The notes under the pieces were generated by a model. The model made no database searches, was not told the DNA's origin, and worked only from the letters and a program-made list of their open reading frames with translations. From a bacterium (GTDB lineage Bacteria > Actinomycetota > Acidimicrobiia > Spongiisociales > UBA5794), in contig JAAELU010000292.1 in the NCBI GenBank assembly GCA_024226255.1, forward strand, positions 1-36,638: a stretch of DNA of 36,638 nucleotides, written 5' to 3'. The first letter of the stretch is position 1; each line of letters starts with the position of its first letter. Positions 20,331-36,626 of the stretch are shown piece by piece. Position numbers and translations under genes: made by a program.

Positions 20331-20366
20331 CTGTCCTCCGGCTCAGTAACCTAGCCGACAACTCAA

Positions 20367-20387
20367 TTGTCCGGACAATACGGACTA
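20367..20387. promoter_or_regulatory. Putative GntR operator in front of the soe operon
   Basis: The perfect palindrome TTGTCCGGACAA extends into ATACGGACTA. The same 21 bp occurs, inverted on the plus strand, at 25112-25132 beside gntR. It covers the -10 box of the soe promoter, as expected for a repressor site. The protein that binds is inferred. Confidence 0.75.
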
Positions 20388-20404
20388 ATCGGCGGAGGGG
20401 TCAA
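20375..20404 (-). promoter_or_regulatory. soe operon promoter
   Basis: On the minus strand TTGACC (20404-20399), an 18-nt spacer and TATTGT (20380-20375). The predicted transcript starts about 37 nt before the TTG start codon. The -35, spacing and -10 match the promoter at 25095-25124. Confidence 0.7.
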
Positions 20405-20437
20405 CTGCCGATGGATTCTGCGTGAATCCCGAGTCCT

Positions 20438-20773
20438 CTACAGGATCGTCGGGCGGTTGCCGTCGGTGCTGCGAAGCGGAAATCCAGCGGCGTCCCACGC
20501 CCTCAGGCCACCCGTAAGGTGATAAGCGGAGTAGCCGGCCTTGGCGAGTCTCTTGGCCGTTCGTTTCGACTTTGAGCCGTCGGCGCAAACCGCGATCACA
20601 GAATCGGCGCGGCCGACCGTATGGGAGTCAACCTGGCCGCGGGGTACTCGATCGGCTCCCTCGACGTGGCCGGCGGCCCAGTCGCGTTCACTGCGCACGT
20701 CGATCATGCGGGCGCCGGCGTCGACGAGTTTCCTTGCGGTTTCCGCGCTAATCGACTTGAACTCCGTGGCCAT
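20438..20773 (-). CDS. Single-domain rhodanese
   Basis: A 111-residue sulfurtransferase. The active-site loop is VCADGSKSKRTA with the catalytic cysteine at about residue 63. The fold markers MIDVRSERDWAAGHVEGA and HLTGGLRAWDAAGFPL match the family. No signal peptide is present, so it is cytoplasmic. It lies directly upstream of the soe promoter on the same strand and diverges from a SulP gene. In this setting it may load sulfane sulfur onto TusA or DsrE carriers (inference). Confidence 0.9.
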   Translation of the reverse strand: MATEFKSISAETARKLVDAGARMIDVRSERDWAAGHVEGADRVPRGQVDSHTVGRADSVIAVCADGSKSKRTAKRLAKAGYSAYHLTGGLRAWDAAGFPLRSTDGNRPTIL

Positions 20774-20849
20774 GGAATGATCTTATCCCGATGTGGAGCC
20801 GGCGTACATGAGGATCCGGCAGCGCGTCGTGCTAGCTAGCTAGTGCGAT

Positions 20850-22457
20850 ATGGAAGTTTTTCCGGTCAACTTGATGAATCCCGGCATGGGCGGCCTATTG
20901 TCTCGGGGTCGGGCAGACTGGATTGAGATGACCGCACGAACCTGGGAGAAGCCACAGCGCGGCGACGTCATTGCCGGCTTGAGTGTGGCAGTTGTGGTTA
21001 TTCCTCAGGCGTTGGCCTATGCCGAAATCGCCGGTCTCCCGGCATACATCGGGCTCTACGCTGCGGCACTGCCCCCTCTGGTTGCTGCCGTTTTTGTTTC
21101 GTCCCGGTATCTCCAAACCGGTCCTACCGCAATGACTGCGTTGCTGACTTTCGGCGCGGTTAGCCAGATCGCGAAACCCGGCTCAACGGAGTATGTGGAG
21201 GTCGCGATCGTTCTGGCGCTGATTGTGGGTCTCTTGCGGCTGGCGCTCGGACTCGTGAGAGGTGGCGTCGTTGCATTCCTGATGTCTTCGCCGGCCATGA
21301 TCGGCTTCACGGCTGCCGCCGCGATCCTGATCCTCGCCTCCCAGCTACCGACCGCGTTGGGCGTGTCGAGTGGCGACGGTTCGCTGCTCGGCAACGCCTG
21401 GGATGCCGTCGTCGATCCATCCGCCTGGAGTTGGCCGGCCCTCTTGATTGCGTTGGCGACGGGCGCCATCGTTCTTGCTGGGAGGCGGATCCATCAACTG
21501 TTTCCCGGAGTGCTGCTGGCTCTTGTCGCCGGGATCCTCTTCAGCGAGATCATCGATTACACCGGCCAGGTCGTGGGTGAGGTCCCCAGCGGTCTGCCAC
21601 CGCTGTCTCTGGCCTTCTCTTTCAACAGCATCTGGAAGCTGTTGATCCCGGGTGGCGTGATCGCGTTACTCGGTTTTGCCGAGGTGGCGGCCATCTCCCG
21701 CACCTTCGCGACTCAGGACCGGGAGCACTGGGATCCGAACCGCGAGTTCGTCTCACAGGGGATGGCCAACATTGCCGCGGCGGTTTCCGGTGGCTTCCCC
21801 GTTGGCGGCTCTTTCTCCCGATCCTCCATCGCGCGGGTGGCCGGAACGAAGACCCGATGGGCAGGAGCCATCACAGGCGTAGCTGTGTTGGCGTTCCTGC
21901 CATTCGCCAACGTCATTTCACCCCTTCCGCGGGCGGTGCTGGCGGCCATCGTCATCGTCGCTGTGCTGCGGCTGGTGCGCCTTGTGACGATGGTTCGTCT
22001 GATCGCCAAGACGTGGGGTCAAGCGTTCGTGGCGTGGGTGACCTTCTTCGCAACTCTGGCGCTGTCGCCACGTATTGAGCTGGGCGTCGTCGTCGGAGTT
22101 GTGTTGGCAGCTGCCGTGCACTTCCGCAGGGAGACGCTGATCCGGGTGTCGGCCGAACAGGATGGCGGAGTGCTAGTGCTGAAACCTGCGGGAGTCCTCT
22201 TCTACGGCTCCACTGCCCGCCTCGACGAGACGTTCTCGAATCACTTGGCCGCCCACCCGGAAACTGAGTCGGTGATCGTCGACCTCGAGGGGCTCGGCAG
22301 AATCGACTACACCGGTGCGCTGGCCCTCAAGGAGCTTCTCGACGACGCGGCTGCCGCCGGCCTCAGCGTCGGCGTCCGGGACATACCTCGCCACGCCGAA
22401 GGCACTCTCAATCGCAGCTGGGGCGATGATCTAACTCACCTCCGGTGGGAGGGATGA
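20850..22457 (+). CDS. SulP-family anion transporter with STAS domain (1)
   Basis: A 535-residue SulP (SLC26-type) permease. About 10-12 membrane helices span residues 40-425, opening with GDVIAGLSVAVVVIPQALAYA, the family signature in TM1. A cytoplasmic STAS domain (about 435-530, VIVDLEGLGRIDYTGALALKELL) follows. Substrates of the family include sulfate and bicarbonate; sulfur neighbours favour sulfate or a related anion. The N-terminus is uncertain: ATG at 20850 is used, but 20928 (MTARTWEKPQRGD) would also give a complete transporter. Confidence 0.88.
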   Translation: MEVFPVNLMNPGMGGLLSRGRADWIEMTARTWEKPQRGDVIAGLSVAVVVIPQALAYAEIAGLPAYIGLYAAALPPLVAAVFVSSRYLQTGPTAMTALLTFGAVSQIAKPGSTEYVEVAIVLALIVGLLRLALGLVRGGVVAFLMSSPAMIGFTAAAAILILASQLPTALGVSSGDGSLLGNAWDAVVDPSAWSWPALLIALATGAIVLAGRRIHQLFPGVLLALVAGILFSEIIDYTGQVVGEVPSGLPPLSLAFSFNSIWKLLIPGGVIALLGFAEVAAISRTFATQDREHWDPNREFVSQGMANIAAAVSGGFPVGGSFSRSSIARVAGTKTRWAGAITGVAVLAFLPFANVISPLPRAVLAAIVIVAVLRLVRLVTMVRLIAKTWGQAFVAWVTFFATLALSPRIELGVVVGVVLAAAVHFRRETLIRVSAEQDGGVLVLKPAGVLFYGSTARLDETFSNHLAAHPETESVIVDLEGLGRIDYTGALALKELLDDAAAAGLSVGVRDIPRHAEGTLNRSWGDDLTHLRWEG

Positions 22458-22493: not shown

Positions 22494-22570
22494 GTGTCCT
22501 GAGTCGTGAGTTCGTAGTGATTGTGCCGAGGGCCGCCACAATTCGGTGCATGACTTGCGACTCAGGACAC
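22494..22570. repeat. 13-bp inverted repeat between convergent SulP genes
   Basis: GTGTCCTGAGTCG (22494-22506) is matched exactly inverted by CGACTCAGGACAC (22558-22570), with ATTGTG/CACAAT nested inside. It fills the gap between two convergent genes and could act as a bidirectional terminator, though T-tracts are missing. CTCAGGACAC recurs at 25945. Confidence 0.8.
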
Positions 22571-24285
22571 TAGAACAGATCCGCGTCGTGATCCTCGCTG
22601 CTCTCCGGGCTCCGCAACGGATTCTCCAAGCTGTATCCAGCTGTATCAAGAGCGCTCTCGATGTCGGGGTGGACGTTGTCGCGTCCGAGCCTGGCAAGTA
22701 GCCCGGAGCGCGTCATCACCTCGCGGACGGGCCCACGGATGGTCGCCACGTGTATCTGGATACCGGCGTCGTTGAAGTGGTCGATGACCTCGCGGAGGCT
22801 GTGGTCAGCCGACCCATCGAGGTCGGATACGGCGCTCGCATCGAGCACCACGGTGCGCAGATCGGGGCGTGACGCCACCAAAGCCAGCAATCGATCGCGG
22901 AGGAAGTTGGCATTCGCGAAGTACAGCGGGCCGTCCAGGCGAACGATGGCTAGATGAGCATCTGTGATCGTCCGGTAGGCCTCGACGTTGCGGAATGTCG
23001 TGGTTCCCGAGACCCGGCCCAGTTCCGCAATGTGCGGCTTGGCGCTGCCGTAGACGAAGAGGCCGAGGCTGACGAGGACGCCGATGGCGATCCCGATTTC
23101 GATGCCAAGAAGGAGCGTTGCCAGGAACGTTGCCAGCAGGGCAATCCCATCGGTGATGCGCACCCGGAAGATGCTGCGGGCGGTGGCCACGTCGACCAGG
23201 CTGGCAACCGCCACAACGATGATCGCCGCAAGAACAGCGTTCGGGAGGTTGAAGAACAGCGACGTGATCAACAGCACCGACAGGGCAACCGTCACTGCGG
23301 TGATGACTGTCGCCATTCCCGTGCGGGCACCTGCTTGGTAGTTGACCGCCGTACGCGAAAATCCACCGGCCACAGGGAAGCCCTGGAACAGACCGGCGGC
23401 CACGTTGGCCGCGCCCACCGCGATGAACTCTTGATTCGGGGAGATCTCCTGGCGAGTCTTGGCTGCCATGGCCTTGGCGATGCTGATTCCCTCGGTGTAT
23501 CCGATCAAAGCAACCGTCAGTGCGGTTGGGATCAATGCTTCGACGGAGTGCCAGCTGAGATCTGGCACTACCAAGCCGGGGAGCCCACTGGGGATGTCGC
23601 CGAGGACGGCGACGCCGCGGTCTGCGAGATCAACGCCGGCCACGATCGCGATGGCGGCGGCGACCACCAGTAGCGGGGTGGGGAATCGGGGCATGCTACG
23701 GCGTCCCACGATCAATACGGCCATCGCCGCGACCGATACGGCAACAGTGGTCGCGTGCACATCGCCCAGGTTGGACAGGATGTCTCCAACGCCGGCCACA
23801 AACCCATCTGGCCGCGGCAGGTCCAAACCGAGGAGCGGCCGGACCTGGCTCAATGCGATAATCAAGGCCGCGGCGCTCGTGAAACCAACCAAGACCGGGT
23901 GCGACAGCAGGTTGGTGAGGGCCCCGAGCCTCAGCACTCCAAGCACCAGCTGAATCACACCGACCATCAGGGCCAGCGTGCCTGCCAGCGCAACGTATTT
24001 GATCGGGTCGCCGTCTGCAAGTGGGGCCAGCCCGGACGCTGTCAGCAGAGAAATCACGGCAACCGGGCCAATGGCCAATTGGCCGCTTGTGCCGAGCATC
24101 GCATAGGCCAGGAGCGGCACGACGGACGCGTATAGCCCGGCGATGGGAGGCAGGCCGGCGAGCGAGGCATAGGCCATGCTCTGAGGTACCAGCATGACGG
24201 CGACGACTAGCCCCGCTCTCAGGTCATCTCGGAAGACCTCGCTCGAGTAGGTGCGGAGCCAGGTGGCGGCCGGGAAGGGGTTCAT
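22570..24285 (-). CDS. SulP-family anion transporter with STAS domain (2)
   Basis: A 571-residue SulP permease with family marks DDLRAGLVVAVMLVPQSMAYA, LSHPVLVGFTSAAALIIALS and GFPVAGGFSRTAVNYQAGA. The C-terminal STAS domain includes VVLDASAVSDLDGSADHSL. It differs substantially from SulP 1. I use the ATG at 24285 (MNPFPAATWLRT) rather than the track's 24438: it is one base from the gntR stop and precedes TM1, while the extension overlaps gntR in another frame. It is therefore probably co-transcribed with gntR and under its control. Sulfate is the likeliest substrate; direction of transport cannot be read. Confidence 0.9.
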   Translation of the reverse strand: MNPFPAATWLRTYSSEVFRDDLRAGLVVAVMLVPQSMAYASLAGLPPIAGLYASVVPLLAYAMLGTSGQLAIGPVAVISLLTASGLAPLADGDPIKYVALAGTLALMVGVIQLVLGVLRLGALTNLLSHPVLVGFTSAAALIIALSQVRPLLGLDLPRPDGFVAGVGDILSNLGDVHATTVAVSVAAMAVLIVGRRSMPRFPTPLLVVAAAIAIVAGVDLADRGVAVLGDIPSGLPGLVVPDLSWHSVEALIPTALTVALIGYTEGISIAKAMAAKTRQEISPNQEFIAVGAANVAAGLFQGFPVAGGFSRTAVNYQAGARTGMATVITAVTVALSVLLITSLFFNLPNAVLAAIIVVAVASLVDVATARSIFRVRITDGIALLATFLATLLLGIEIGIAIGVLVSLGLFVYGSAKPHIAELGRVSGTTTFRNVEAYRTITDAHLAIVRLDGPLYFANANFLRDRLLALVASRPDLRTVVLDASAVSDLDGSADHSLREVIDHFNDAGIQIHVATIRGPVREVMTRSGLLARLGRDNVHPDIESALDTAGYSLENPLRSPESSEDHDADLF

Positions 24286-24286
24286 C

Positions 24287-25027
24287 TCAGCCCGCGACGA
24301 GGCGAGGTACGACCAGGGTGTCCGACGCTCTCCACTCGGCAAGGAAGCTGTAGCGATCTCCCCGTACCGAGGTGATGCGCCACTCCAGTGGGGCGCCCCG
24401 TGCCGTGGTGCGCCGCTCGATTTCGAGAACGGGCTCACCCGCGGCCAGTTCTAGGTACCCGGCGTGAACCGGATCCGGTAAGGCGGGCTTGATACGTTCT
24501 CGGCCTCCCTCGGGAGAGATGTGGCAGTGCTCCTTCAACTCCGAGTAGAGCGCGGTATGGCCGAAATCAATTCCGAGTAGTGATTTGGTGATCGTTCCCG
24601 GCAGCCAGGTGCGGTCGTGGGCTATCGGCTCGCCATCGGCAAGGCGGATCCGTTCGAGATAGAACAGGTCGGCATCGGCGGGTAGTTCGAGAACGGCTGC
24701 CGCTAGCTGGTCGTGCCGCATTTCGAGTGCCAGCACGATCGAATCCTGATTCATGCCGGCCTCTTCGATACTCTCGTAGAGTGAGTACACGGTCCCGAGA
24801 GGTTGCTCGTAGAGGGTGGTTTCAACTCGTGAGCCCCGACCGGGGTGCCGGCTGATTTTGCCCGAGGTCTGTAACTCGCGAACCGCCTCGCGCACTGTGT
24901 GCCGGCTCACGCCGTACGTTTCCATGAGTTCGCGGTCGGTGGGGAATCTCGAGTCGAACTCACCGGATTCCAAGCGCTGCAACAGGTCATCGAGGACTGT
25001 GCGCCACAGGGGAGTTCGCTGAGTCAT
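24287..25027 (-). CDS. GntR/HutC-family regulator with UTRA domain
   Basis: A 246-residue transcription factor. An N-terminal winged helix (about 1-70: FPTDRELMETYGVSRHTVREAV, quoted in part; ISRHPGRGSRV) is typical of GntR. The C-terminal UTRA effector domain (about 95-240, ELPADADLFYLERIRLADGE) is typical of the HutC/FarR subfamily, which binds a small organic ligand and is usually a repressor released by it. The gene heads gntR-sulP2. The palindrome at 25112-25132 lies in its upstream region and again at the soe promoter, making it the best candidate to bind both. The ligand is unknown; a sulfur-containing organic molecule would fit the context. Confidence 0.9.
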   Translation of the reverse strand: MTQRTPLWRTVLDDLLQRLESGEFDSRFPTDRELMETYGVSRHTVREAVRELQTSGKISRHPGRGSRVETTLYEQPLGTVYSLYESIEEAGMNQDSIVLALEMRHDQLAAAVLELPADADLFYLERIRLADGEPIAHDRTWLPGTITKSLLGIDFGHTALYSELKEHCHISPEGGRERIKPALPDPVHAGYLELAAGEPVLEIERRTTARGAPLEWRITSVRGDRYSFLAEWRASDTLVVPRLVAG

Positions 25028-25964: not shown

Positions 25965-26273
25965 CTACTCAGCGGGGACGAGTTGGTCGGCCATGACTTC
26001 GCGCAGCAGGTCCATGGCCTGAATGATCTTCGGCGAGGACAACGAGTAGTACACGAATTGGCCATCGCGCCGGGCGTTGACGAGACCCTTGTCGCGCAGG
26101 ATCGCCAGATGCTGAGAGACGTTGGCCTGTGGTAGCTCCAGCGTGGCACAGATCGTGCCGACAGCCAGTTCACCGTCGCGCAGCGCGTTGATGATCAACA
26201 GTCTCTTGGGATCGGCCAGGCCCTTGCACACACTTGCATGAAGCGCCATCAGTTCACGTCTAACGCCGGACAT
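25965..26273 (-). CDS. ArsR-family regulator of the sulfur oxidation operon
   Basis: A 102-residue winged-helix repressor: LADPKRLLIINALRDGELAV, then recognition region ELPQANVSQHLAILRDKGLV and wing RRDGQFVYYSL. Cysteines are C16 and C42. SqrR/BigR-type sulfane-sulfur sensors also have a cysteine in the last helix, but that helix (IIQAMDLLREVMADQLV) has none here, so any thiol sensing would use a different pair. The 230-aa track ORF is an over-extension; ATG 26273 gives the normal family length. It is divergent from the tusA-sHdr operon, which carries an ATTC-N8-GAAT operator. sHdr clusters often have such a regulator (sHdrR). Binding to that operator is inferred. Confidence 0.9.
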   Translation of the reverse strand: MSGVRRELMALHASVCKGLADPKRLLIINALRDGELAVGTICATLELPQANVSQHLAILRDKGLVNARRDGQFVYYSLSSPKIIQAMDLLREVMADQLVPAE

Positions 26274-26279
26274 GTATTC

Positions 26280-26309
26280 ACTATGCCATATGTACTCGGA
26301 GAGGGTCAA
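26280..26309 (-). promoter_or_regulatory. arsR promoter, probably leaderless transcript
   Basis: On the minus strand TTGACC (26309-26304), 18 nt and CATAGT (26285-26280). Only six bases separate the -10 from the ATG, so transcription should start at or next to the start codon. Confidence 0.55.
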
Positions 26310-26351
26310 AGGGGCCGCGGCGCCGGGGGCCGCATTGATATGCAGAACCTG

Positions 26352-26381
26352 TTGACGCCGTGCTTGGCAGTATGGGATACT
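26352..26381 (+). promoter_or_regulatory. Promoter of the tusA-dsrE-sHdr-etf-emo operon
   Basis: TTGACG, an 18-nt spacer and GATACT. The predicted start is about 26388, immediately before the ATTC-N8-GAAT palindrome and about 70 nt upstream of tusA. No other promoter of this quality was seen downstream. Confidence 0.65.
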
Positions 26382-26390
26382 CGGCCGCAG

Positions 26391-26410
26391 ATATTCGTGT
26401 ATGCGAATAT
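26391..26410. promoter_or_regulatory. SqrR/BigR-type operator upstream of tusA
   Basis: ATATTCGTGTATGCGAATAT has 7-bp arms in perfect inverted symmetry and fits ATTC-N8-GAAT, the consensus I recall for SqrR/BigR sulfane-sulfur sensors. It sits just after the predicted transcription start, where a bound ArsR protein would block elongation or initiation. Confidence 0.75.
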
Positions 26411-26459
26411 GGCACCAAGCCCCGTTTTGAAGCCGTGCCGACGAGAGGAGATACGTTTC

Positions 26460-26705
26460 GTGACGACCGCCGACATCCAGGTCGATCAGGTTCTCGACTG
26501 CACCGGGCTGCTTTGTCCGATTCCCGTGGTCAAGGCCTCTCAAGCCATCAAGACCATCGACGTGGGACAGGTCCTGCAGATGATCGCCACCGACCCCGGA
26601 GCGCCGCCCGACATGGAGGCCTGGTCTCGCCAGACCGGTCATGAGCTGCTCGCCCAATCAGCGGAGGACGGCAAATTCGTGTTCTGGTTCAAGAGGACTA
26701 GGTAA
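26460..26705 (+). CDS. tusA: TusA-family sulfur carrier
   Basis: An 81-residue sulfur-carrier protein with the TusA signature DCTGLLCPIPVVKA; C19 of the CPxP motif carries the persulfide, and C14 precedes it. The C-terminus (ELLAQSAEDGKFVFWFKRT) matches the family. The start is GTG with GAGAGGAGA upstream; the longer 155-aa track ORF reads through the operator region and is rejected. In sHdr organisms TusA passes sulfane sulfur between rhodanese/DsrE proteins and sHdr. It is first in the operon. Confidence 0.93.
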   Translation: MTTADIQVDQVLDCTGLLCPIPVVKASQAIKTIDVGQVLQMIATDPGAPPDMEAWSRQTGHELLAQSAEDGKFVFWFKRTR

Positions 26706-26719
26706 GAGGGAGAAGACCT

Positions 26720-27277
26720 ATGACGGCACAGACAGGAGATCCAACACTCAAGCCGGTGGAGGATGCAGCTCCTGCTGATGAAGCCGTCCCCGCCCGTAAG
26801 AAGATGGCGCTGGTTGCCTCGAAAGGCGGGTTGGACGAGGTCTACCCGGTCCTGATCATGGCCTCGACGGCCGGGGCTCTCGGCTGGGACACTCAGGTGT
26901 TCTGCACCTTCTATGGGCTCGACATCGTCAACAAGAAGCGCCGGAAGAACATGAAGGTATCTGCCCTTGGCAATGCGGCGTCGCCGCCTCCCATCAGCGG
27001 TGTCGAGGTGCGCGTGCCGGCCATTTTCGGAGTGTTGCCCGGTATGAACCGGGTCGCCACCTGGATGATGAAGAAGTGGATGAAAGACTCGAATATCCCG
27101 GACGTGGAGGACCTCTTCCAGATCTGTATCGAGTCGGGCGTCAAGTTCCACGCGTGTGCTACCACCATGGGAGTGATGAACGTGGAGCAGGACGACATCC
27201 TCGATGATGTGGCCTGTCTCGGGGCGACCGCGTTTCTGGACTTCGCGGCCGGTGCCGATCTGGCCTTGTTTGTTTAG
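26720..27277 (+). CDS. DsrE3A-like sulfurtransferase
   Basis: A 185-residue protein of the DsrE/DsrF family (DsrE2/DsrE3 type). After a 27-residue flexible N-terminus it has KKMALVASKGGLDEVYPVLIM and a central helical region. The active-site region is KFHACATTMGVM with C146 as likely sulfur-binding residue; C166 lies further on. The end (GATAFLDFAAGADLALFV) is typical. The central hydrophobic/Met-rich stretch (VLPGMNRVATWMMKKWMK) may lie at a membrane or a partner surface. DsrE3A exchanges sulfane sulfur with TusA in sHdr systems; tusA is 14 nt upstream. Confidence 0.85.
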   Translation: MTAQTGDPTLKPVEDAAPADEAVPARKKMALVASKGGLDEVYPVLIMASTAGALGWDTQVFCTFYGLDIVNKKRRKNMKVSALGNAASPPPISGVEVRVPAIFGVLPGMNRVATWMMKKWMKDSNIPDVEDLFQICIESGVKFHACATTMGVMNVEQDDILDDVACLGATAFLDFAAGADLALFV

Positions 27278-27295: not shown

Positions 27296-27670
27296 ATGGA
27301 TGACGATGATGCCCTAATTGTCTACGTACAGACTCATGGGGACGATGAGCCGTCGAAGTCGGCCACGCCCTTCTACCTGGCAACGGCGGCGGCTGCCATG
27401 GACATGGAAGTCGCCATCTACTTCACGATGCACGGCCCGACCCTGCTGAAAAAGGGCACCGGGGACACCCTGACGGCCAAGGAGGGCGGCGCCCCGCTGC
27501 AGAGCTTCATCAAGCAGGCACAAGACATCGGGGTGCGGTTCCTCGTGTGTCAGCCGTCGCTCGATCTCGTCGACCTCAACATGGAGGATCTCATCGACGG
27601 TGTCGAGATGATCGGCGGTGCCGCCTTCAACGACCTTGCCGCCCGAGCCGACGCAGTGATCAGTTTCTGA
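27296..27670 (+). CDS. Second DsrE-family protein
   Basis: A 124-residue DsrE-like protein: ALIVYVQTHGDDEPSKSATP at the N-terminus, AMDMEVAIYFTMHGPTLLKK and GVRFLVCQPSLDLVDL. The single cysteine, C85, is in the position of the family's sulfur-binding residue. It ends GAAFNDLAARADAVISF, parallel to its neighbour. It may be the DsrE3B-type partner seen in some sHdr clusters. The ATG follows CGGAGGG; its stop overlaps the sHdrC1 ATG (TGATG). Confidence 0.82.
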   Translation: MDDDDALIVYVQTHGDDEPSKSATPFYLATAAAAMDMEVAIYFTMHGPTLLKKGTGDTLTAKEGGAPLQSFIKQAQDIGVRFLVCQPSLDLVDLNMEDLIDGVEMIGGAAFNDLAARADAVISF

Positions 27671-28404
27671 TGGCGGCAGCCGCTCCCGTGACAACTTTCG
27701 CCACCGCCGGTGGTGCCACATTGTCGCCAGACCACTATGTCGACGTCGCGTACGAGGAGAAGCTGCGGCTGTGGGACGAGGTGAAGGCCGATCCTCGCTT
27801 CCCGGATTACCTGTATGGCTGCTACGAGTGCGGTATCTGTGTCGCCGCCTGTCCGTCTGCCAAGTTCTACAACTTCTCGCCACGCAAGATTGCCCAGGCC
27901 GCCGCCCGTGAGGACGTCGAGCTCATTTTCGAGCAGATGAACGATGACGTCTGGAACTGCTCGCAATGTTTCTCGTGCAATCGTTGTCCCCGGCAGAACT
28001 CGCCCGGTGGCCTCATCACGATCCTGCGAGAGGTTGCGGTCAACAATGGCTTGGCCTCGTCGAAGGCGGCCCTGGAGGGATACACCAGGATCGTCTACAA
28101 GATCATGACAACCGGTACCCAGGTGTCCCCCGACATGCTGCAGGCGGACGCCTTCCCCGACTGGGGACCTGGCGTCATGGAGGTCTCGGACAACCTCGAG
28201 TTATGGCGCAAGGCCCTGCCCCCGGAGACCCTGCACACCACATCAATGAGCTGGCAGGTGGACGACAAGACACTCACCGAGCTCTACCTCATCTGGCACT
28301 ACACCGGTGTGATGGACTTGATTGCGGAGGTCGATGAGGGGCTCCACATGATCATCCTCGATGTGATGGAAGAGACGCTCGAGGAAGCCGGGTTCGAGAT
28401 ATGA
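27670..28404 (+). CDS. shdrC1: sHdrC1, ferredoxin-like subunit of the sulfur-oxidising Hdr-like complex
   Basis: A 244-residue iron-sulfur protein with two cluster motifs: C51/C54/C57/C61 (CYECGICVAACPS) and C97/C100/C103/C106 (CSQCFSCNRCPRQ). This is the HdrC pattern; the second motif's shortened spacing is seen in sHdrC1. The rest is helical (LWRKALPPETLH). It should carry electrons between HdrB1 and HdrA. The ATG at 27670 overlaps the upstream stop; the longer track ORF is rejected. Confidence 0.88.
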   Translation: MAAAAPVTTFATAGGATLSPDHYVDVAYEEKLRLWDEVKADPRFPDYLYGCYECGICVAACPSAKFYNFSPRKIAQAAAREDVELIFEQMNDDVWNCSQCFSCNRCPRQNSPGGLITILREVAVNNGLASSKAALEGYTRIVYKIMTTGTQVSPDMLQADAFPDWGPGVMEVSDNLELWRKALPPETLHTTSMSWQVDDKTLTELYLIWHYTGVMDLIAEVDEGLHMIILDVMEETLEEAGFEI

Positions 28405-28417
28405 CGAGGAGAGTTTT

Positions 28418-29605
28418 GTGACGAGCATCATTCCGATCGAATCGCTGCGAATGAAGCCGCGGCCGGATCCGGCGAATGCCCCGACCATCGATATTCGGGA
28501 AACGCTGTTCGAGCTCGAGGCCGCCGGCGAATTGATCGTGCACCGTGTTCCCGAACCGTATGTCGAGGTCATGACCAAGTACGGGCGTACCAAGAGGATC
28601 CCTGAGCAGATGACGTGGCACCACAAGTCGTGCGGGCAATGCGGTCACATCCCCGGCTATTCCACCTCGATCTTCTGGCTGAATCGCAAGCTCGGATTCG
28701 ACTACGTCGATCCGACAGACCAGACATCGTGCACGGCGTGGAATTATTACGCGTCGGCTACGTCCAATGCGGCGGCGCAGGCCGGCGTCGCCATGCGGAA
28801 CTTCGCCGCCGCCCACGAGGTCGGCTACTACCCGCTGATTCACTGCGGCACCTCATACGGCCACTACAAGGAGGTGCGCGAGGAGATTGTGCACCACGCC
28901 GACCTGCGAGCCCAGGTACGCGACATCATGGGAAAACTCGGCAAAGAGCTCGTAATGCCCGAGGAGATCGTTCACTACTCCGAGTGGGTTCACGCCATGC
29001 GCCATCGGTTCGCCGAGCTCCAGGTGTACGACCTGTCCAACGTCACGGCCTCCGTTCACCCGGCGTGTCACTACTACAAGCTGGTGCAGGAAGACGCCAT
29101 CTACGATCCGGATCTGTACGGCGGAGAACGCACGGCGACAGTTTCCGCGTTGGTGGAGGCCCTCGGCGCCACCGTCGGCGACTACTCCACCTTTTTTGAC
29201 TGCTGCGGCTTCGGCTTCCGCCACATCCTCGTCGAGCGCGATTTCAGTCGCTCATTCGCCACCATGCGCAAGATCGAGGTGATCAAGGAGGAGGCCAACC
29301 CCGACGTAGTGCTCACACACGACACGGGTTGCGTCACCACCCTGGACAAGAGCCAGTTTGCCGCCCAGGCACACCAGAGGAACGTGGGCATTCCGGTGAT
29401 GTCCGACGCCCAATTCGCCGCGTTGGCCATGGGGGCCCATCCATACAAGGTGTGCCAACTCCACTGGCACACAACCGATTACACAGCCCTGCTCGAGAAG
29501 ATGGGTATCGATTGGGAGAAGGCGTGGATCGAGTTCGAAATGGATGTCGCCCGAATCGAGCGCGGTGAAATCGAGTATCTGTCTTGGGAGGACGCCGGTG
29601 TCTGA
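28418..29605 (+). CDS. shdrB1: sHdrB1, catalytic-type subunit of the sHdr complex
   Basis: A 395-residue HdrB-type protein. Cysteine-rich regions are HHKSCGQCGHIPGYS (C72, C75), DQTSCTAWNYY, HPACHYYK, FFDCCGFGF and HDTGCVTTLDK. The C-terminal set has the CCG order C...CC...C, but the last CxxC is reduced to one cysteine (GCVTTL). In HdrB of methanogens such motifs bind non-cubane [4Fe-4S] clusters; in sHdr the bound sulfur substrate, thought to ride on lipoylated LbpA, is processed here. It starts with GTG after GGAGAG, 13 nt behind shdrC1, and overlaps shdrA by eight bases. Confidence 0.87.
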   Translation: MTSIIPIESLRMKPRPDPANAPTIDIRETLFELEAAGELIVHRVPEPYVEVMTKYGRTKRIPEQMTWHHKSCGQCGHIPGYSTSIFWLNRKLGFDYVDPTDQTSCTAWNYYASATSNAAAQAGVAMRNFAAAHEVGYYPLIHCGTSYGHYKEVREEIVHHADLRAQVRDIMGKLGKELVMPEEIVHYSEWVHAMRHRFAELQVYDLSNVTASVHPACHYYKLVQEDAIYDPDLYGGERTATVSALVEALGATVGDYSTFFDCCGFGFRHILVERDFSRSFATMRKIEVIKEEANPDVVLTHDTGCVTTLDKSQFAAQAHQRNVGIPVMSDAQFAALAMGAHPYKVCQLHWHTTDYTALLEKMGIDWEKAWIEFEMDVARIERGEIEYLSWEDAGV

Positions 29606-30656
29606 TCGTATCGTTGTCATTGGAGGCGGCCCGGCCGGGCTTGAAGCTGCGGCCATGGCCGGCCGGCTGGGGGCGCCGGTGCTCATTGTCGAGAAGAGGT
29701 CCCACCTCGGCGGGGCGCCGATTGCGGAAAGCTACGCAGCCCTCACCCACGGTCTTCAGTCGGCCGAAGAGCTGATGGGCAAGATGATGGCCGCCGCCAC
29801 CGACCTCGACCGGGTCGAGGTCAGGACGGAGTCCGAGGTCGTTGCGATGAGCGGGACCGGCGGCAACTTCACCGTCACGATTTCGTCCAACGGGTCGGAG
29901 GAAACAGTCGATGCCGGGGCCATCGTGCTCGCCACCGGCTTCCAGCACTTTGATCCGGGGCGCGAGACCCAGCAGTACGGCTACTACGAGTTCCCCGACG
30001 TCATCACGATCCAGGACGCCGAAGGCATGCTGAAGGAAGAGACCTTCGTCACCCCATCGACAGGTAAGCCGCCGGAGCGGGTGGCGTTCATACAGTGTGT
30101 CGGTTCACGAGATCGCCAGATCGGTAACGAGTATTGCTCCAAGGTGTGTTGCGGGATCTCGTCGAAACAGGCCATTGAGGTGCGCCAACAGGTCCCGGAT
30201 GCCCGGGTCTTCATCTTCTACATCGACATGCGCATGTACGGCTATTGGGAGAACGAAATCTACTGGCCGGCCCAGGAGCAGCACCGGGTCAACTATGTGA
30301 AGGGCATCGTCACGGAGGTCCTGGCCAAGAATGGGCGCCTGATAATTCGTGGCGAGGACACCACGATGGGGCGGCCGATGGAGGTGCCCATGGACGTTGT
30401 GGTGCTGGCCGTTGGGATGGAGCCGTCGCCAGGCACCAGGCATATGGCCGACATCCTGGGGATCGCCACCAACAAGTACGGATTTGTGGAAACCGTTCAC
30501 GACGTCCTCGACACGGTGACCACTGCCGTTGCGGGCGTCTATGTCTGTGGCTCCGCCACCGGTCCTGCCGACCTCGACGATACGATCTCTTCGGCCGGGT
30601 CGGCCGGCGCCAAAGCTGTGGCGTACCTGCGCTCCGGTGCGGAGGTGCCCGCTTGA
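29598..30656 (+). CDS. shdrA: sHdrA, flavoprotein subunit of the sHdr complex
   Basis: A 352-residue FAD protein: Rossmann motif VVIGGGPAGLEAAAMAG at the N-terminus, second FAD signature AIVLATGFQHF, and the HdrA cluster motif IQCVGSR...YCSKVCCGISSKQA. The final FAD region is GVYVCGSATGPADLDDTI. It lacks the N-terminal and C-terminal ferredoxin extensions of methanogen HdrA, as is normal for sHdrA. I chose the GTG at 29598, giving VSDRIVVIGGGPAG; the track's 29544 start is inside shdrB1. It overlaps both neighbours, so the subunits are translationally coupled. Confidence 0.92.
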   Translation: MSDRIVVIGGGPAGLEAAAMAGRLGAPVLIVEKRSHLGGAPIAESYAALTHGLQSAEELMGKMMAAATDLDRVEVRTESEVVAMSGTGGNFTVTISSNGSEETVDAGAIVLATGFQHFDPGRETQQYGYYEFPDVITIQDAEGMLKEETFVTPSTGKPPERVAFIQCVGSRDRQIGNEYCSKVCCGISSKQAIEVRQQVPDARVFIFYIDMRMYGYWENEIYWPAQEQHRVNYVKGIVTEVLAKNGRLIIRGEDTTMGRPMEVPMDVVVLAVGMEPSPGTRHMADILGIATNKYGFVETVHDVLDTVTTAVAGVYVCGSATGPADLDDTISSAGSAGAKAVAYLRSGAEVPA

Positions 30657-31435
30657 CCGCAGCCGATTTCTACTCCGGACAGGTCGTCGACACACAAACG
30701 GCGCGCGAGTTCACGGAACAGGTGCTTTCACGGGTCGGCAGGGACGAGCTGAGCGATGTCGCTGCTCTCTTGGAGCACAAGGTGCAGGCGTTCCAGACTC
30801 TGCTGGCGAGAGATGCGCTCCGCTCCCTGACCGAGGCACAGGCAACGAACCTGCTGCGCTCGGTCTTCTCCACTCGCCGCAAGCACCGGGTGATCCTCGA
30901 CACTCTCACCCTTGGGGGATTCGTCGATCTGTGTGACGACCTGCTGTACGGAGACGCTCCTGTAGCCACGCGGCTGGCCATTTTTCACAACGAGGTCGGC
31001 GGAATTGGGCGCGACTTGCCCAGCCAGGTCGGCTTCGACCTTGGGAGCAGCTTGTTGCATTTCTCCGATCCCGAGCGGTACTGGCTGTGGACTCAGTGGA
31101 TGTGGGATCCAAGAAACCTGACGGGGTCCCTCCCCTTGGTAGTCACAGAAGAGGTCGATCTCATCGCAGACGACATAGCCGAGACCTATCGACGAATCGG
31201 CGTGGCGATTGCGTTTGTCAACGATGTTGGCGAGGCTGCTGAATTCCGTGAGCGCGGCCACGGGATTCTCGATACCGACGTTTTCCTGGCCTGCGTCTAC
31301 GGAATCTATATGTACACGACGCTGCGGATGCGGATGACCCAGGAGTTCAACCAGGTCGTCCCCGAGCTGGGCGAGCTGCTGCGTCGGCTACTCGGGGTAC
31401 ATCGTTCACCCCTCATAGAAGGGACGGCGCCATGA
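30653..31435 (+). CDS. sHdrHyp, conserved protein of sHdr clusters
   Basis: A 260-residue mostly helical protein with no cofactor motif; its two cysteines are not in a cluster arrangement. Notable segments are QVGFDLGSSLLHFSDPERYW and WMWDPRNLTG. It starts with TTG overlapping the shdrA stop (TTGA) and ends overlapping the next ATG. Position between shdrA and the second HdrB-type gene is exactly where sHdr clusters carry the hypothetical gene named Hyp. Biochemical role unknown; assembly or structure within the complex is possible. Identification is mainly by synteny. Confidence 0.75.
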   Translation: MTAADFYSGQVVDTQTAREFTEQVLSRVGRDELSDVAALLEHKVQAFQTLLARDALRSLTEAQATNLLRSVFSTRRKHRVILDTLTLGGFVDLCDDLLYGDAPVATRLAIFHNEVGGIGRDLPSQVGFDLGSSLLHFSDPERYWLWTQWMWDPRNLTGSLPLVVTEEVDLIADDIAETYRRIGVAIAFVNDVGEAAEFRERGHGILDTDVFLACVYGIYMYTTLRMRMTQEFNQVVPELGELLRRLLGVHRSPLIEGTAP

Positions 31436-32724
31436 CGCGAGGCCCCAATCCCAAGGTCGACCCGGAACGGGTCATGGAGCTCGAGCATGCCGTCATCGAC
31501 GGCATGGATGTCTCCGGTCACTGGAACCGGATGTTCGAGCAACGAGTCATCTTCGACTACGACATTCACCAGCTGGACCGGGTCACCGAGCTCGACGGCG
31601 GCGAGTCGATGGGCTGGTGTTATCAATGCGCCCAATGTGTGCCGGTGTGCCCGGTCGACCACGTCGGCACCTACGGCCCGCGCAGGATCTTTCGCAATCT
31701 CCAGCTCGGCCAGGACTTCTTTGCGAACGACGATTTGTGGCTGTGCACCACCTGCGCCAACTGCCTGCGGGTGTGCCCCAAGGAAGTCGACATGCTCCAG
31801 ATCATGCCGGCTGTCCGCAAGGAGGCGGTCCTGGCCGGGGATGTTCCCAAGGAGCTGCAGGATGTGTTCGAGAAGACGGCGCGCTATGGAAACCCGCTGG
31901 GCAAGAACGCCAAGCGCCGGGCGGCATGGACCAAGGGTCTCGATGTCGACGTGCCGCTCATCTCCGAGCTCGACCGCAAGGTCGATGTGCTGTGGTGGGT
32001 CAGCGACTACCCGTCCTATCACCCGCGCGGCATCGATGCCTCCCGGGCCCTGGCCAGGGTTCTCACCCATCTCGGCGTCGACTTCGCCATCCTCGGAGCG
32101 GAGGAGCGCCACGATGGCGACTCGATGCTGCGGGCGGGCGAGTCCGGCCTCTTCGAGATGCTCGCCGAGCAGAACATCGAGACCCTCAATCAGTATGAGT
32201 TCGATGTCCTGCTGACTACTGATCCCCACGCCTACAACGCCTTTCTGCACGAGTACCCGCAGCGCGGCGGCACCTACAACACCGCCCACTACACCCAATT
32301 CCTCGAGGAGCGCATCGAAGCGATGGGGCTTACGGAGTCGATCGACCGCACGATCACATTCCACGACCCCTGCTATTTGGGAAGGCACAACGGCGAATAC
32401 GAGGCGCCGCGAACCCTCATTGGTGCGCTTCCCGGTTCCGAACTCGTCGAGATGTGGCGCAGCCGCGAGAACGGGTATTGCTGCGGCGGCGGGGGTGGCG
32501 GAATGTGGCTCGACGGTCTGGCCGCCGACAACCAGAGCATGCGACTCTCGGAGAAGCGTGTGCGCGAGGCAGTGGAGACGGGGGCGGACACCTTATGTGT
32601 CGCCTGCCCGTACGAAGTGTCTCGATTCGAGGATGCCGTGAAGTCGACGAACAACGACGGCAGCCTGGAGGTGCTCGATATTGCCGAGCTGCTGGCTGCT
32701 GCCCTTGGGCTGGCAACGGACTGA
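31432..32724 (+). CDS. shdrB3: sHdrB3, fused HdrC-HdrB/HdrD-type subunit
   Basis: A 430-residue protein. Two [4Fe-4S] motifs (CYQCAQCVPVCP at residue 63; CTTCANCLRVCP at 105) form an HdrC part. Two CCG-type domains form an HdrB part. The second CCG is complete: DPCYLGRHN, YCCGGGGGG, CVACPYE. The first has kept its fold (ASRALARVLTHLGVDFAIL, SGLFEMLAEQNIETL) but lost every cysteine; TTDPHAYN replaces the usual CPHC. It is homologous to the C-terminal half of the EMO-like protein downstream. In type II sHdr clusters B3 replaces C2+B2 and is thought to link with EtfAB. Confidence 0.85.
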   Translation: MTRGPNPKVDPERVMELEHAVIDGMDVSGHWNRMFEQRVIFDYDIHQLDRVTELDGGESMGWCYQCAQCVPVCPVDHVGTYGPRRIFRNLQLGQDFFANDDLWLCTTCANCLRVCPKEVDMLQIMPAVRKEAVLAGDVPKELQDVFEKTARYGNPLGKNAKRRAAWTKGLDVDVPLISELDRKVDVLWWVSDYPSYHPRGIDASRALARVLTHLGVDFAILGAEERHDGDSMLRAGESGLFEMLAEQNIETLNQYEFDVLLTTDPHAYNAFLHEYPQRGGTYNTAHYTQFLEERIEAMGLTESIDRTITFHDPCYLGRHNGEYEAPRTLIGALPGSELVEMWRSRENGYCCGGGGGGMWLDGLAADNQSMRLSEKRVREAVETGADTLCVACPYEVSRFEDAVKSTNNDGSLEVLDIAELLAAALGLATD

Positions 32725-32751
32725 GTGGACCGGAAAAGTGGAGGATTGACG

Positions 32752-33525
32752 ATGGACATAGCTGTGCTGCTGCGAGCGGTGCCGGATCCCGTCGAGGAGC
32801 TCGAGCTCAACGACGATGAGACGGACCTCGACCGGGACTACCTCGGTTACGTGCTCAACGAATTCGACGACCACGCTCTCGAGGAGGCCCTTCTCCTCAA
32901 AGAGGACACGGGGGGCTCGGTCACGGCGTACGCCATTGGCACTTCGGACGAGGTTGAACAGATTCTCGTGACCGCGATCGCCAAGGGGGCTGATGCCGCA
33001 GTCAAGCTTGGCGATGACCTGGGGGTGCTCGACGCCCACGCCCAGTCCGAAATCTTTGCCGCCGCCCTCGGCGAGAGGTCTCATCAGGCAATCCTGTGTG
33101 GTGTGCAGGCATCCGACGAGATCGACGGCCAGGTGGCAATGTTGCTTTCGGCCCGGCTTGGTCATCCCCATGTGTCGGTCGTGGTGGCGACATCTGTAAC
33201 AGATGCGGGCCTCAGCGTCACCAAGGAGTATTGGGCCGGCATCACCGCGACATACGACGTTAGGTTGCCGGCCGTGCTCGGCATCCAGGCGGCCCGCCAG
33301 GCGCCCCGGTATGTTGCCGTGAGCCGGATTCGCCAGGCCCAGGATTCCGGAGCCTTGTCCGAAGTGGACACGGTGGCGCCTGCCAGTTCATCTGGTGTGA
33401 CGATTACCGCAATACGCATTCCGGAGTCTGGCGCAGGTGCCGAGATGATCTCTGGAGACGAAACCGCCGCGGCGGAACAGATCGTTGCGCTGCTCCAGGC
33501 TGCCGGTGTGGGAGGTGCGCCATGA
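32752..33525 (+). CDS. etfB: Electron transfer flavoprotein beta subunit
   Basis: A 257-residue EtfB. Family marks: IAVLLRAVPDPVEELEL at the start, VLNEFDDHALEEALLLKE, and the signature DVRLPAVLGIQAARQAPRYV. ATG 32752 follows GGAGG; the track's start 27 nt earlier is rejected. It overlaps etfA by four bases. Paired with etfA it should accept electrons from the sHdr complex, probably at HdrB3, and hand them to the membrane EMO. Whether it bifurcates electrons cannot be decided by eye. Confidence 0.93.
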   Translation: MDIAVLLRAVPDPVEELELNDDETDLDRDYLGYVLNEFDDHALEEALLLKEDTGGSVTAYAIGTSDEVEQILVTAIAKGADAAVKLGDDLGVLDAHAQSEIFAAALGERSHQAILCGVQASDEIDGQVAMLLSARLGHPHVSVVVATSVTDAGLSVTKEYWAGITATYDVRLPAVLGIQAARQAPRYVAVSRIRQAQDSGALSEVDTVAPASSSGVTITAIRIPESGAGAEMISGDETAAAEQIVALLQAAGVGGAP

Positions 33526-34481
33526 GCGGAGCCATTCTTGTCGTCACCGAACATCTCGGCGGACAGTTCACCGATGCAACGTTCGAGCTGTTGGCGTTGG
33601 CCAATGGTCTCGCCACCTCAACAGGTGCCGAGGTGGAAGCGGCGCTCGTCGGCGCCGACGTCGCCGGAATGACCACCCAGCTAGGAGCCGCCGGCCGCGT
33701 TCTGCTGATCGAGGACCCGGCATTGGAGTCGTTCAACCCGCATGGGCATGCTTGCGTTGTGGCCGGCCTCGTCGCAGACCGTGAGCCGGGCATCGTTCTT
33801 GTGCCGTATACCTCAACCGGCATGGATATGGCATCTCACATCGCGTCTCGCAGCGACCTGCCATTGGTGTCCTACTGCCAGTCGATCGACGCCTCCGCGG
33901 GACTGGCCGCCACATGTCAGCTGTATGCAGGCAAGATCGAGGCAGATGTCTCAGTAGATGGCGACCGCGCCGTGTTTGCCGTCCTGTCCGGTGCCGCCGC
34001 GGCGGCCGACGGGCGCCGGGACGGCTCGCCGACCGTCGAGTCGGTCACAGTCGAGGTTCCCGGTGGAACCTCATTCACCGGCCAGGTCGAGCCCGAGGCC
34101 GGTGACGTGGACATCACGGTCCAGGATGTGCTCCTGGTTGTCGGCCGCGGTATCGAGTCGGAGGACAACATCGAGGAGGTGGCCGAGCTGGCCGAGGCGC
34201 TCGGCGGTGCCGTTGCGGCCTCTCGTCCCGTCGTCGATCAAGGCTGGCTGCCAAAGACGCGGCAGGTCGGAAAGTCCGGCCTCACCGTGAAGCCCAAGGT
34301 GTACCTGGCGCTGGGGGTGAGCGGGGCGCCGGAGCACGTCGAAGGAATGCGCGACTCGTCGACGATCATTGCGGTGAACACCGACCCGCAAGCACCCATC
34401 TTCGGGGTGGCGCACCATGGTTGGGTTGGCGACCTGTTCGACCTCGTACCGGAACTGGCCGATCTACTAGAAGGAAGCTGA
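33522..34481 (+). CDS. etfA: Electron transfer flavoprotein alpha subunit
   Basis: A 319-residue EtfA. The C-terminal FAD domain is well conserved: GGAVAASRPVVDQGWLP, RQVGKSGLTVKPKVYLALGV, SGAPEHVEGM, IIAVNTDPQAPIFGVAHHG and VGDLFDLVPELADLL. No ferredoxin extension is present. The ATG overlaps the etfB stop. The downstream EMO-like gene begins 45 nt later on the same strand. Confidence 0.95.
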   Translation: MSGAILVVTEHLGGQFTDATFELLALANGLATSTGAEVEAALVGADVAGMTTQLGAAGRVLLIEDPALESFNPHGHACVVAGLVADREPGIVLVPYTSTGMDMASHIASRSDLPLVSYCQSIDASAGLAATCQLYAGKIEADVSVDGDRAVFAVLSGAAAAADGRRDGSPTVESVTVEVPGGTSFTGQVEPEAGDVDITVQDVLLVVGRGIESEDNIEEVAELAEALGGAVAASRPVVDQGWLPKTRQVGKSGLTVKPKVYLALGVSGAPEHVEGMRDSSTIIAVNTDPQAPIFGVAHHGWVGDLFDLVPELADLLEGS

Positions 34482-34526
34482 ACGCTCATTGTGCTCCTGC
34501 AGTTCCGTCGGGTCTAGAGAGTGACC

Positions 34527-36626
34527 ATGGCATCCCATCAGTTGGCGGCCGGCGCTACCGAAGGCCGTGAGGTGTTCGAGGGCTTCGGCACCGCCCCGAT
34601 CGTGGTCTTCTACCTGTTGACCCTCGTCACCATCGCCATCTTCACCTACGGATTCTGGCGGCGGTTCGCCAAGTACCGCACCGGCCGTGCCGCCGGTCGG
34701 TTGAACCTCAACAATATGAAACGGGTGGTCGTCGACCTGTCCTCGCAGCGCACGATCGGAAAACGTGATCCGTACATTCGTGTCGCTCACTTTCTCGTGT
34801 TCTGGGGCTTCATCGTCCTGCTGATTGGCACGACGATCATCGCCATCGACGAGGACATCTTCGGTTTCCTGCTGAACAAACCGGGCTGGCAGTTCTGGCA
34901 CGGCGCCTTCTACGTCGGGTATGCCCTGGTGCTCGATCTCTTCGGGATCGGGTTCATCGTTGGACTACTCATGCTCGCCAATCGCAGGAGGAGCAAGCCC
35001 TTCCGGCTCGATTATGGACGGGTCGATCGTGATGATTATGACCGGGGCGGCTACTCACGGGACGACCGTGTCTTTCTCGGGATCCTGCTGTCCCTCGGGG
35101 TTTCCGGCTTTCTCATCGAGGGCTTCCGCATTGTTGCCAACGACTTCCCCTCATTCGAGCGGGTTTCGATTGCGGGCTATACCGTCGCACTGCTCTTCTC
35201 CTGGCTCGGTGAGGCCGGCAGTGACACGGCGCGGGTGGTGACCTGGTGGTTCCACGCCGGCGCGGCCCTCGCCTTCGTCGCATACATCCCGTACTCCAAA
35301 GCGATGCACATCGTCGTCGACGCCGTGGACCTGCTGGTCACCAACCCGGACTCGGCTCGCTCGCTGCCGGCCGTGGCGGACCCGGCATCGCCGGGATACC
35401 AGACCATGGAGTCATTCACCTGGAAGGAGTACCTGGACTTCGATGCGTGCACCAAGTGTGGCCGCTGCCACGAAGTCTGCCCGGCACGCACCTCCGGGGC
35501 GCCACTGTCGCCGCGTGATTTCATCCTCGATCTGCGAGAGGCTGCCGACAGCCGGGCCGGGATCAAGCTCTGGTACGGCGGCGGGGCCGAGCCGCGTCAC
35601 GCCGGAGCGACCGAGGTGGCCGGTTCTGTCATCGCTACCGACACTCTGTGGGCCTGCACCACCTGTATGGCATGTATGGAGGTGTGTCCCGTCGGTATCG
35701 AGCATGTGCCCACGATCGTTGAGCTGCGGCGGCGCCTTGTCGACGTCGGCGATGTCGAGCCCGGCCTGCAGAACGCCTTCCAGTCACTCACCAGGGGCGG
35801 CAACAGCTTCGGCAAGTCGGCCAAGCAGCGGGCCCGGTGGACGAAGGGCCTCGATTTCACGATCAAGGATCTTCGCAAGGAGCCGGCCGAGTACCTGTGG
35901 TTCGTCGGTGATCAGGCCGCGTTCGACCCGCGGGCGGCCGAGGTGTCCCGCACGGTGGCCCAGCTTTTCCATCGCGCCGATCTCGATTTCGGGCTGCTGT
36001 ACGAGGCCGAACGTAACTCGGGCAACGATGTGCGACGCGCCGGCGAGGAGGGCCTCTTCGAGATGTTGCGCGACCAGAACCGCGACGCCTTCGATTCTGC
36101 CGGATTCCAGAAAATCCTGACCACCGATCCCCATTCCCTCAACACGCTCCGTCACGAATACGACCTGGAGCAACCCGTCGTTCATTACTCGCAGATCCTC
36201 GATGAGCTCGTGAGTTCTGGGCGCCTCAGCCTGAAGACTCTGCAGGGCCGGGCGACATACCACGATCCGTGTTATCTGGGCCGCTACGCCGAGGAATACG
36301 ATGCCCCCCGTCGCCTCATTGCGGCAACCGGCCTCGAGTTCGTCGAGATGGGACGCTGCCGAGAGAACTCTTTCTGCTGTGGCGCCGGTGGCGGCCGTAT
36401 CTGGATGGACGATTCGGGCCTCGAGGAGCGACCGGCGGAGAACCGTATCCGCGAGGCCGTCGCTCTCGGTGATGATGTGCGGTTCTTCGTCGTGGCGTGT
36501 CCCAAGGACATGGTGATGTACACCGACGCGGTCAAGACGACGGGCAACGAAGGGCGGCTCGAAGTAGTCGACATCGCCCAGCTGGTTGGGCGGGCCCTCG
36601 AGACGGAGGGCGCCCTTGCCGGATAA
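34527..36626 (+). CDS. emo: Membrane ETF:menaquinone oxidoreductase-like protein (EMO/EtfD type)
   Basis: A 699-residue protein. The N-terminal 290 residues form about 5-6 membrane helices of NarI/cytochrome b type, with histidines suited to heme binding (VAHFLVFWGF, WHGAFYVGYAL, WWFHAGAALAF, YSKAMHIV). Two [4Fe-4S] motifs follow at residues 308 (CTKCGRCHEVCP) and 377 (CTTCMACMEVCP), then two CCG domains. The first CCG has no cysteines (LTTDPHSLN). The second has DPCYLGRY, FCCGAGGG and only VVACP instead of CxxC. This layout matches mycobacterial EtfD and the EMO of type II sHdr clusters: electrons from EtfAB enter and reduce menaquinone. GTG 34521 is an alternative start two codons upstream. 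Only 12 nt of the window follow. Confidence 0.85.
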   Translation: MASHQLAAGATEGREVFEGFGTAPIVVFYLLTLVTIAIFTYGFWRRFAKYRTGRAAGRLNLNNMKRVVVDLSSQRTIGKRDPYIRVAHFLVFWGFIVLLIGTTIIAIDEDIFGFLLNKPGWQFWHGAFYVGYALVLDLFGIGFIVGLLMLANRRRSKPFRLDYGRVDRDDYDRGGYSRDDRVFLGILLSLGVSGFLIEGFRIVANDFPSFERVSIAGYTVALLFSWLGEAGSDTARVVTWWFHAGAALAFVAYIPYSKAMHIVVDAVDLLVTNPDSARSLPAVADPASPGYQTMESFTWKEYLDFDACTKCGRCHEVCPARTSGAPLSPRDFILDLREAADSRAGIKLWYGGGAEPRHAGATEVAGSVIATDTLWACTTCMACMEVCPVGIEHVPTIVELRRRLVDVGDVEPGLQNAFQSLTRGGNSFGKSAKQRARWTKGLDFTIKDLRKEPAEYLWFVGDQAAFDPRAAEVSRTVAQLFHRADLDFGLLYEAERNSGNDVRRAGEEGLFEMLRDQNRDAFDSAGFQKILTTDPHSLNTLRHEYDLEQPVVHYSQILDELVSSGRLSLKTLQGRATYHDPCYLGRYAEEYDAPRRLIAATGLEFVEMGRCRENSFCCGAGGGRIWMDDSGLEERPAENRIREAVALGDDVRFFVVACPKDMVMYTDAVKTTGNEGRLEVVDIAQLVGRALETEGALAG

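Follow-up and report, generated by a model that had tools for sequence, protein, structure and literature searches.

The arsR gene and the adjoining sulfur operon

The window – the whole 36,638-nucleotide stretch of an Acidimicrobiia genome (contig JAAELU010000292.1) – contains a gene for an ArsR-family repressor (25965..26273, minus strand) that lies divergent from a long run of sulfur genes on the plus strand. The 102-residue protein carries the LHASVCKGLADPKRL motif; C16 and C42 are its only cysteines, the C-terminal helix having none. It matches Pfam HTH_5 at 58.9 bits and the NCBIfam HTH_metalloreg subfamily at 91 bits (cut-off 55), and its AlphaFold2 model (pLDDT 91, pTM 0.79) has the standard ArsR fold, in which alpha1 (residues 3-19) contains C16 and alpha3 (residues 38-45) contains C42.

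The sulfur operon begins with tusA, encoding a sulfurtransferase (sulfur carrier) (26460..26705; Pfam TusA, 74.5 bits), followed by genes for a DsrE2/DsrE3-type sulfur carrier (26720..27277; Pfam DrsE_2, 132 bits; NCBIfam SulfCarrDsrE2, 159.7 bits, below the cut-off of 210) and a second DsrE-family protein (27296..27670; Pfam DsrE, 68 bits). Next are an hdrC1-like gene for an Fe-S protein with 4Fe-4S dicluster domains (27670..28404, start approximate), an hdrB1-like gene for a CCG protein (28418..29605; Pfam CCG) and an hdrA-like flavoprotein gene (29598..30656, start approximate; Pyr_redox_2). The window Hdr proteins all score below the cut-offs of the HdrC, HdrB and HdrA models, which were set for methanogen-type enzymes. 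A gene for the Hyp subunit of hdr-like clusters (30725..31435, start approximate), whose product has no Pfam or NCBIfam match, occupies the same position as in the relatives L062, L064 and L071, and is followed by an hdrC2-hdrB2 fusion (31432..32724; 4Fe-4S plus CCG), etfB and etfA (32725..34481; NCBIfam ETF beta/alpha matches below cut-offs), and a gene for an HdrD/QmoC-like membrane protein with 4Fe-4S and CCG domains (34521..36626), all on the plus strand. Judged by gene content, tusA-dsrE-dsrE-hdrCBA-hyp-hdrC2B2-etfBA is an sHdr-type sulfur-oxidation cluster: it has the order hdrC1-hdrB1-hdrA-hyp-hdrC2/B2 together with TusA and DsrE, with hdrC2 and hdrB2 fused and etfBA next. An HdrB1 of the window type is encoded in 13 of the 138 genomes of the same order.

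A second sulfur gene cluster is located at 16000-20773 (minus strand), with a rhodanese gene first, together with genes for a molybdopterin oxidoreductase and its FeS and membrane subunits. Two convergent genes for SulP-family anion permeases (20850-22457, plus strand; 22570-24438, minus strand) lie between the two clusters.

An operator at the predicted start of the sulfur operon

The 186-nt gap between arsR and tusA contains a perfect inverted repeat with 7-bp arms, ATATTCGTGTATGCGAATAT (26391..26410, assigned to neither strand), of the form ATATTCG-N6-CGAATAT and 117 nt from the arsR ATG at 26273. A sigma-70-like consensus scan finds two promoters, one on each strand, compared with 0.2 in shuffles. 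The predicted sulfur-operon promoter (TTGACG-18-GATACT, 26352..26381, plus strand) would start transcription at about 26388 and, because the repeat begins 9 nt past its -10, the repeat overlies the point where the tusA-first transcript is predicted to begin; the same promoter-then-operator geometry is seen again in relatives. The predicted arsR promoter (TTGACC-18-CATAGT with a TG before the -10, 26280..26309, minus strand) places the arsR start on or adjoining the ATG, so that the arsR mRNA is probably leaderless, and a block resembling this promoter is kept before the ATG in many relatives. A candidate for a further operator, at the start of arsR (26274-26293), scores only 3.9 bits with the matrix described below, and the conserved block there is better explained as the arsR -10.

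A recurring palindrome is visible on reading the intergenic regions of relatives, and a de novo search for palindromic motifs in 30 related regions (non-redundant, de-duplicated by shared 8-mers) yields ATATKCG-N6-CGMATAT, in which K is more often G than T. The motif has a log-likelihood of 298, compared with 41-49 in six dinucleotide shuffles, a contrast inflated by the shared descent of orthologous regions, and tests on held-out promoters are for that reason more telling. A matrix trained solely on the 30 regions (background 1.6e-5 per position at 15 bits or more) gives the window operator 27.0 bits. The runner-up in the window, at 12.3 bits, lies within hdrA (30226-30245) and recurs in the same coding stretch of relatives, probably through codon conservation. 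The exact family pattern TATKCG-N6-CGMATA occurs once in the 5.0 Mb genome, at the window site. Nine other sites with one mismatch are present (reversed control, 3), and tblastn identified no sulfur gene at these.

The preliminary description had placed an operator at the start of the sulfur operon, divergent from arsR, and had assigned it to the ATTC-N8-GAAT class. The position holds, and the window copy does fit ATTC-N8-GAAT; it is the only such match in the window, for which dinucleotide shuffles predict 0.41, so that about 0.002 would be expected in the 186-nt gap. The class assignment holds less well: the family consensus is close to ATTC-N8-GAAT, but the strict form is exact in just two of the 30 related regions.

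The held-out promoters carry the site as well. In many relatives a gene for a rhodanese plus metallo-beta-lactamase (persulfide-dioxygenase-type) protein has its own operator, often with a SulP permease gene after it (e.g. L065:2310-3437, L066:5386-6513 and L047:5538-6665); a search of the window's own genome did not find this gene. Where the gene is near arsR – about 2.3 kb away in L039, L040 and L042 – all 22 promoters have a site (p<0.01 against shuffles in each), with 17 of the 22 sites at 15 bits or above. Sites are also present before hdr operons whose arsR is at another locus or beyond the contig (L151, 26.1 bits; L149, 14.2 bits; L148, 13.7 bits) and at a second tusA-hdr promoter in L070 (21.7 bits). 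Together, these observations make it well supported that the palindrome at 26391-26410 acts as the operator of the divergent ArsR.

Some operator-like sequences are less readily placed. The FeS-molybdopterin operon of relatives has dsrE-tusA and an operator, whereas the window copy at 16000-20773 has neither, the best matrix score before its rhodanese gene (20700-20900) being -7.9. Elsewhere in the window's genome, L076:1500-1673 has two matches (15.4 and 18.1 bits), the stronger of which precedes a gltB-like open reading frame by about 40 nt; this may be a regulon member, a target of another regulator, or chance. The gaps in L008/L037 and L026 contain overlapping or tandem half-sites (GATATTCG...CGAATATC, 14 nt apart) rather than one simple palindrome.

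A sulfur-linked group of ArsR proteins

Orthologues of the window ArsR are encoded in 43 of the 138 genomes of the order (the named matches are mostly Acidimicrobiia MAGs), and the operon divergent from them is either tusA-dsrE-hdr or, as the commoner case, dsrE-tusA-FeS-molybdopterin oxidoreductase. More widely, the family profile finds a close match in 48 of 397 genomes of a phylum sample. Sulfur genes are found within 1.5 kb at 19 of 28 wider C16-type loci from outside the order and at 0 of 24 other ArsR loci in the same search, where DsrE, TusA, rhodanese, cysteine desulfurase and flavocytochrome c sulfide dehydrogenase (FCSD) were counted and the rhodanese and FCSD queries, having come from neighbours of the C16 family itself, favour the 28-locus set. 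Counting DsrE or TusA alone (queries from the window and L050), the numbers are 12 of 28 and 0 of 24. In L050, a Raymondbacteria relative with the motif HADICK, the gene precedes cysteine desulfurase-like and DsrE-like genes (both assigned by eye). A site is present upstream of arsR at 10 of the 28 wider-family loci, in other Actinomycetota (p<0.01).

The earlier proposal that an operator at the sulfur-operon promoter serves a sulfur-linked ArsR is thus borne out by recurrence in relatives, in held-out promoters and beside sulfur genes. A regulon of sulfur genes is likewise well supported as a prediction, with the operator carried by tusA-dsrE-hdr, dsrE-tusA-FeS-molybdopterin and rhodanese/metallo-beta-lactamase promoters.

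The window ArsR resembles known sulfane-sulfur sensors in several respects. HlyU, SqrR and BigR are among the PDB fold matches of its model, and BigR (Xylella), SqrR (Rhodobacter), YgaV and HlyU likewise have a palindromic operator at the -10/start region; the SqrR/YgaV operator is ATTC-N8-GAAT (PMC9774250), compared with ATATKCG-N6-CGMATAT in the window family. BigR senses H2S and polysulfide, and its operator overlaps the -10 of the operon for a sulfurtransferase/sulfur-dioxygenase fusion (PMC5823870), a target comparable to the rhodanese/dioxygenase gene of relatives. The sHdrR and SoxR proteins of Hyphomicrobium denitrificans, which are ArsR-type sulfane-sulfur-responsive repressors, share the fold and adjoin sulfur-oxidation genes including the shdr operon. 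The window ArsR probably works like a SqrR/BigR-type sensor. It is not placed in that group because it fails the defining cysteine test: the alpha2 cysteine (SqrR C41, BigR C42, sHdrR C50) and the alpha5 cysteine (C107, C108 and C116, respectively) are both absent, and the NCBIfam BigR equivalog scores 61.5 bits against a cut-off of 155. The lack of a C-terminal-helix cysteine had been recognized in the preliminary description and extends to all 41 aligned orthologues, none of which has a cysteine in alpha5; that the alpha2 column is occupied by N29 (in an alignment with HlyU) had been overlooked. The best PDB fold match is the nodulation regulator NolR of Sinorhizobium (TM-score 0.78, 39% identity), which has leucine at the C16 column. 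A related ArsR/SmtB profile, NCBIfam NF045707 TsoR (Dbac_1936), gives only 58.9 bits where 115 are required, none of the genomes in the phylum sample passes it, and the literature searched yielded no paper on TsoR.

The conserved cysteine and a proposed mechanism

C16 is present in all 41 orthologues, inside the motif L-H-A-x-x-C-K (HAxxCK), and is the sole cysteine in many; residue 16 is also cysteine in 28 of 28 wider relatives. One helical turn away is the nearly invariant H12. An additional cysteine beyond C16 and C42 occurs in a single orthologue (C66 in L036, by aligned columns).

C42 is distributed differently. It had been suggested that C16 and C42 would, if anything, form a new sensing pair, and such a two-cysteine polysulfide switch, possibly acting between protomers, has some attractions. 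Elements in alpha1 and alpha3 can meet across the ArsR dimer, as in CadC-type sites, and the window ArsR has both cysteines, as does each of the seven orthologues from the order whose gene is divergent from a tusA-first (hdr) operon (L001, L008, L026, L035, L062, L064 and L071). However, C42 is present in only 27 of the 41 orthologues, with V, A, T or S in the other 14, and has changed at least three times on trees of about 110 columns whose poor resolution makes such counts lower bounds. ArsRs without C42 adjoin strong operators (L030, 25.0 bits; L067, 24.7 bits; L063, 22.6 bits), the hdr-linked L049 has A42, and C42 is absent from the wider family. Located 13 residues past N29, C42 has the same offset as sHdrR Cys63 from Cys50 and occupies its column, and a general importance of Cys63 has been considered unlikely (PMC12423496); the invariant C16 is distinct from the sHdrR cysteines. 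The pair is thus an unlikely sensor, although C42 could have a modulating role in the subgroup divergent from tusA-first operons.

We favour instead, with a probability of roughly two in three, a sulfane-sulfur-responsive repressor that acts through C16 alone and belongs to a group distinct from SqrR/BigR. The ArsR dimer would bind ATATKCG-N6-CGMATAT, which spans about +4 to +23 in the transcript of the sulfur operon, and would block RNA polymerase, keeping tusA-dsrE-hdr-etf off when there is no oxidizable sulfur. When sulfane sulfur accumulates (as persulfide or polysulfide delivered via TusA, DsrE or a small thiol), it would modify C16 in alpha1, and a C16 persulfide or a C16-Sn-C16' link across the dimer would cause the repressor to leave the DNA, with C42 an accessory residue at most. 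The operator and the regulon are established at the level of sequence; steric repression is suggested by the operator position, sulfane sulfur as the inducer by the genes controlled (sulfur carriers, sulfur-oxidizing complexes and the rhodanese/dioxygenase fusion), and C16 as the sensor by its invariance. Because there is one invariant cysteine, a C16 persulfide or C16-Sn-C16' bridge would be the simplest chemistry; with one cysteine per protomer, an intraprotomer tetrasulfide as in SqrR-type sensors is not possible. Several points weigh against the C16 mechanism. The invariance of C16 could be structural, or could reflect metal binding with H12, and another regulator could read the same motif, an unlikely option given its recurrence beside this arsR and before several types of sulfur operon. 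Moreover, the site is present only once in the window's genome, and the sampled genomes of the same genus lack this arsR.

Two other functions are less likely than sulfane-sulfur sensing. A metal or metalloid sensor using H12 and C16 (plus C42 where present), with sulfur genes targeted for some other reason, would agree with the ArsR/SmtB fold, the HTH_metalloreg match and the position of H12 relative to C16, but is very unlikely: the ELCVCD motif of alpha3 is missing (the protein reads ELAVGTIC), there is no His in alpha5, and among the flanking genes examined there are none for arsenic resistance or efflux, the neighbours handling sulfur. A general thiol-oxidation switch on C16, responding to peroxide or disulfide stress, is the least probable: oxidation of a single cysteine is chemically easy, and the ArsR relative RexT is described as sensing H2O2 through cysteines (PMC8960804), but the targets here are sulfur trafficking and oxidation genes, with no peroxidase or thioredoxin operon among the neighbours examined.

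A 2025 study of sHdrR noted the absence of the two known cysteines from many ArsRs encoded next to shdr genes, and suggested that shdr expression may often be controlled by ArsRs that act in other ways (PMC12423496). The proteins described here offer a candidate class for which both an operator sequence and a predicted regulon are available, along with one residue to target by mutagenesis; this makes the question of shdr-linked ArsRs directly testable and provides a handle on sulfur-oxidation control in uncultured Acidimicrobiia; we found no paper describing a single-cysteine HAxxCK class among the open-access literature. More tentatively, such ArsRs, across Actinomycetota and possibly beyond, might constitute a second route of sulfane-sulfur sensing, independent of the SqrR/BigR pair, in which one alpha1 thiol per protomer, which H12 may prime and which may be joined to its counterpart in the other protomer, controls sHdr, molybdenum-oxidoreductase and persulfide-dioxygenase operons via ATATKCG-N6-CGMATAT.

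Two further arrangements occur among the relatives. Genus g8 (L018, L029, L031 and L061) has ArsR copies that lack C42 and whose divergent neighbour is a lipoprotein-like gene; no operator could be detected there. In L049:239-1631, a tusA-dsrE-hdr operon lies near three ArsR genes, including a tandem pair of the C16 type, and the operator ahead of tusA is weaker (15.7 bits).
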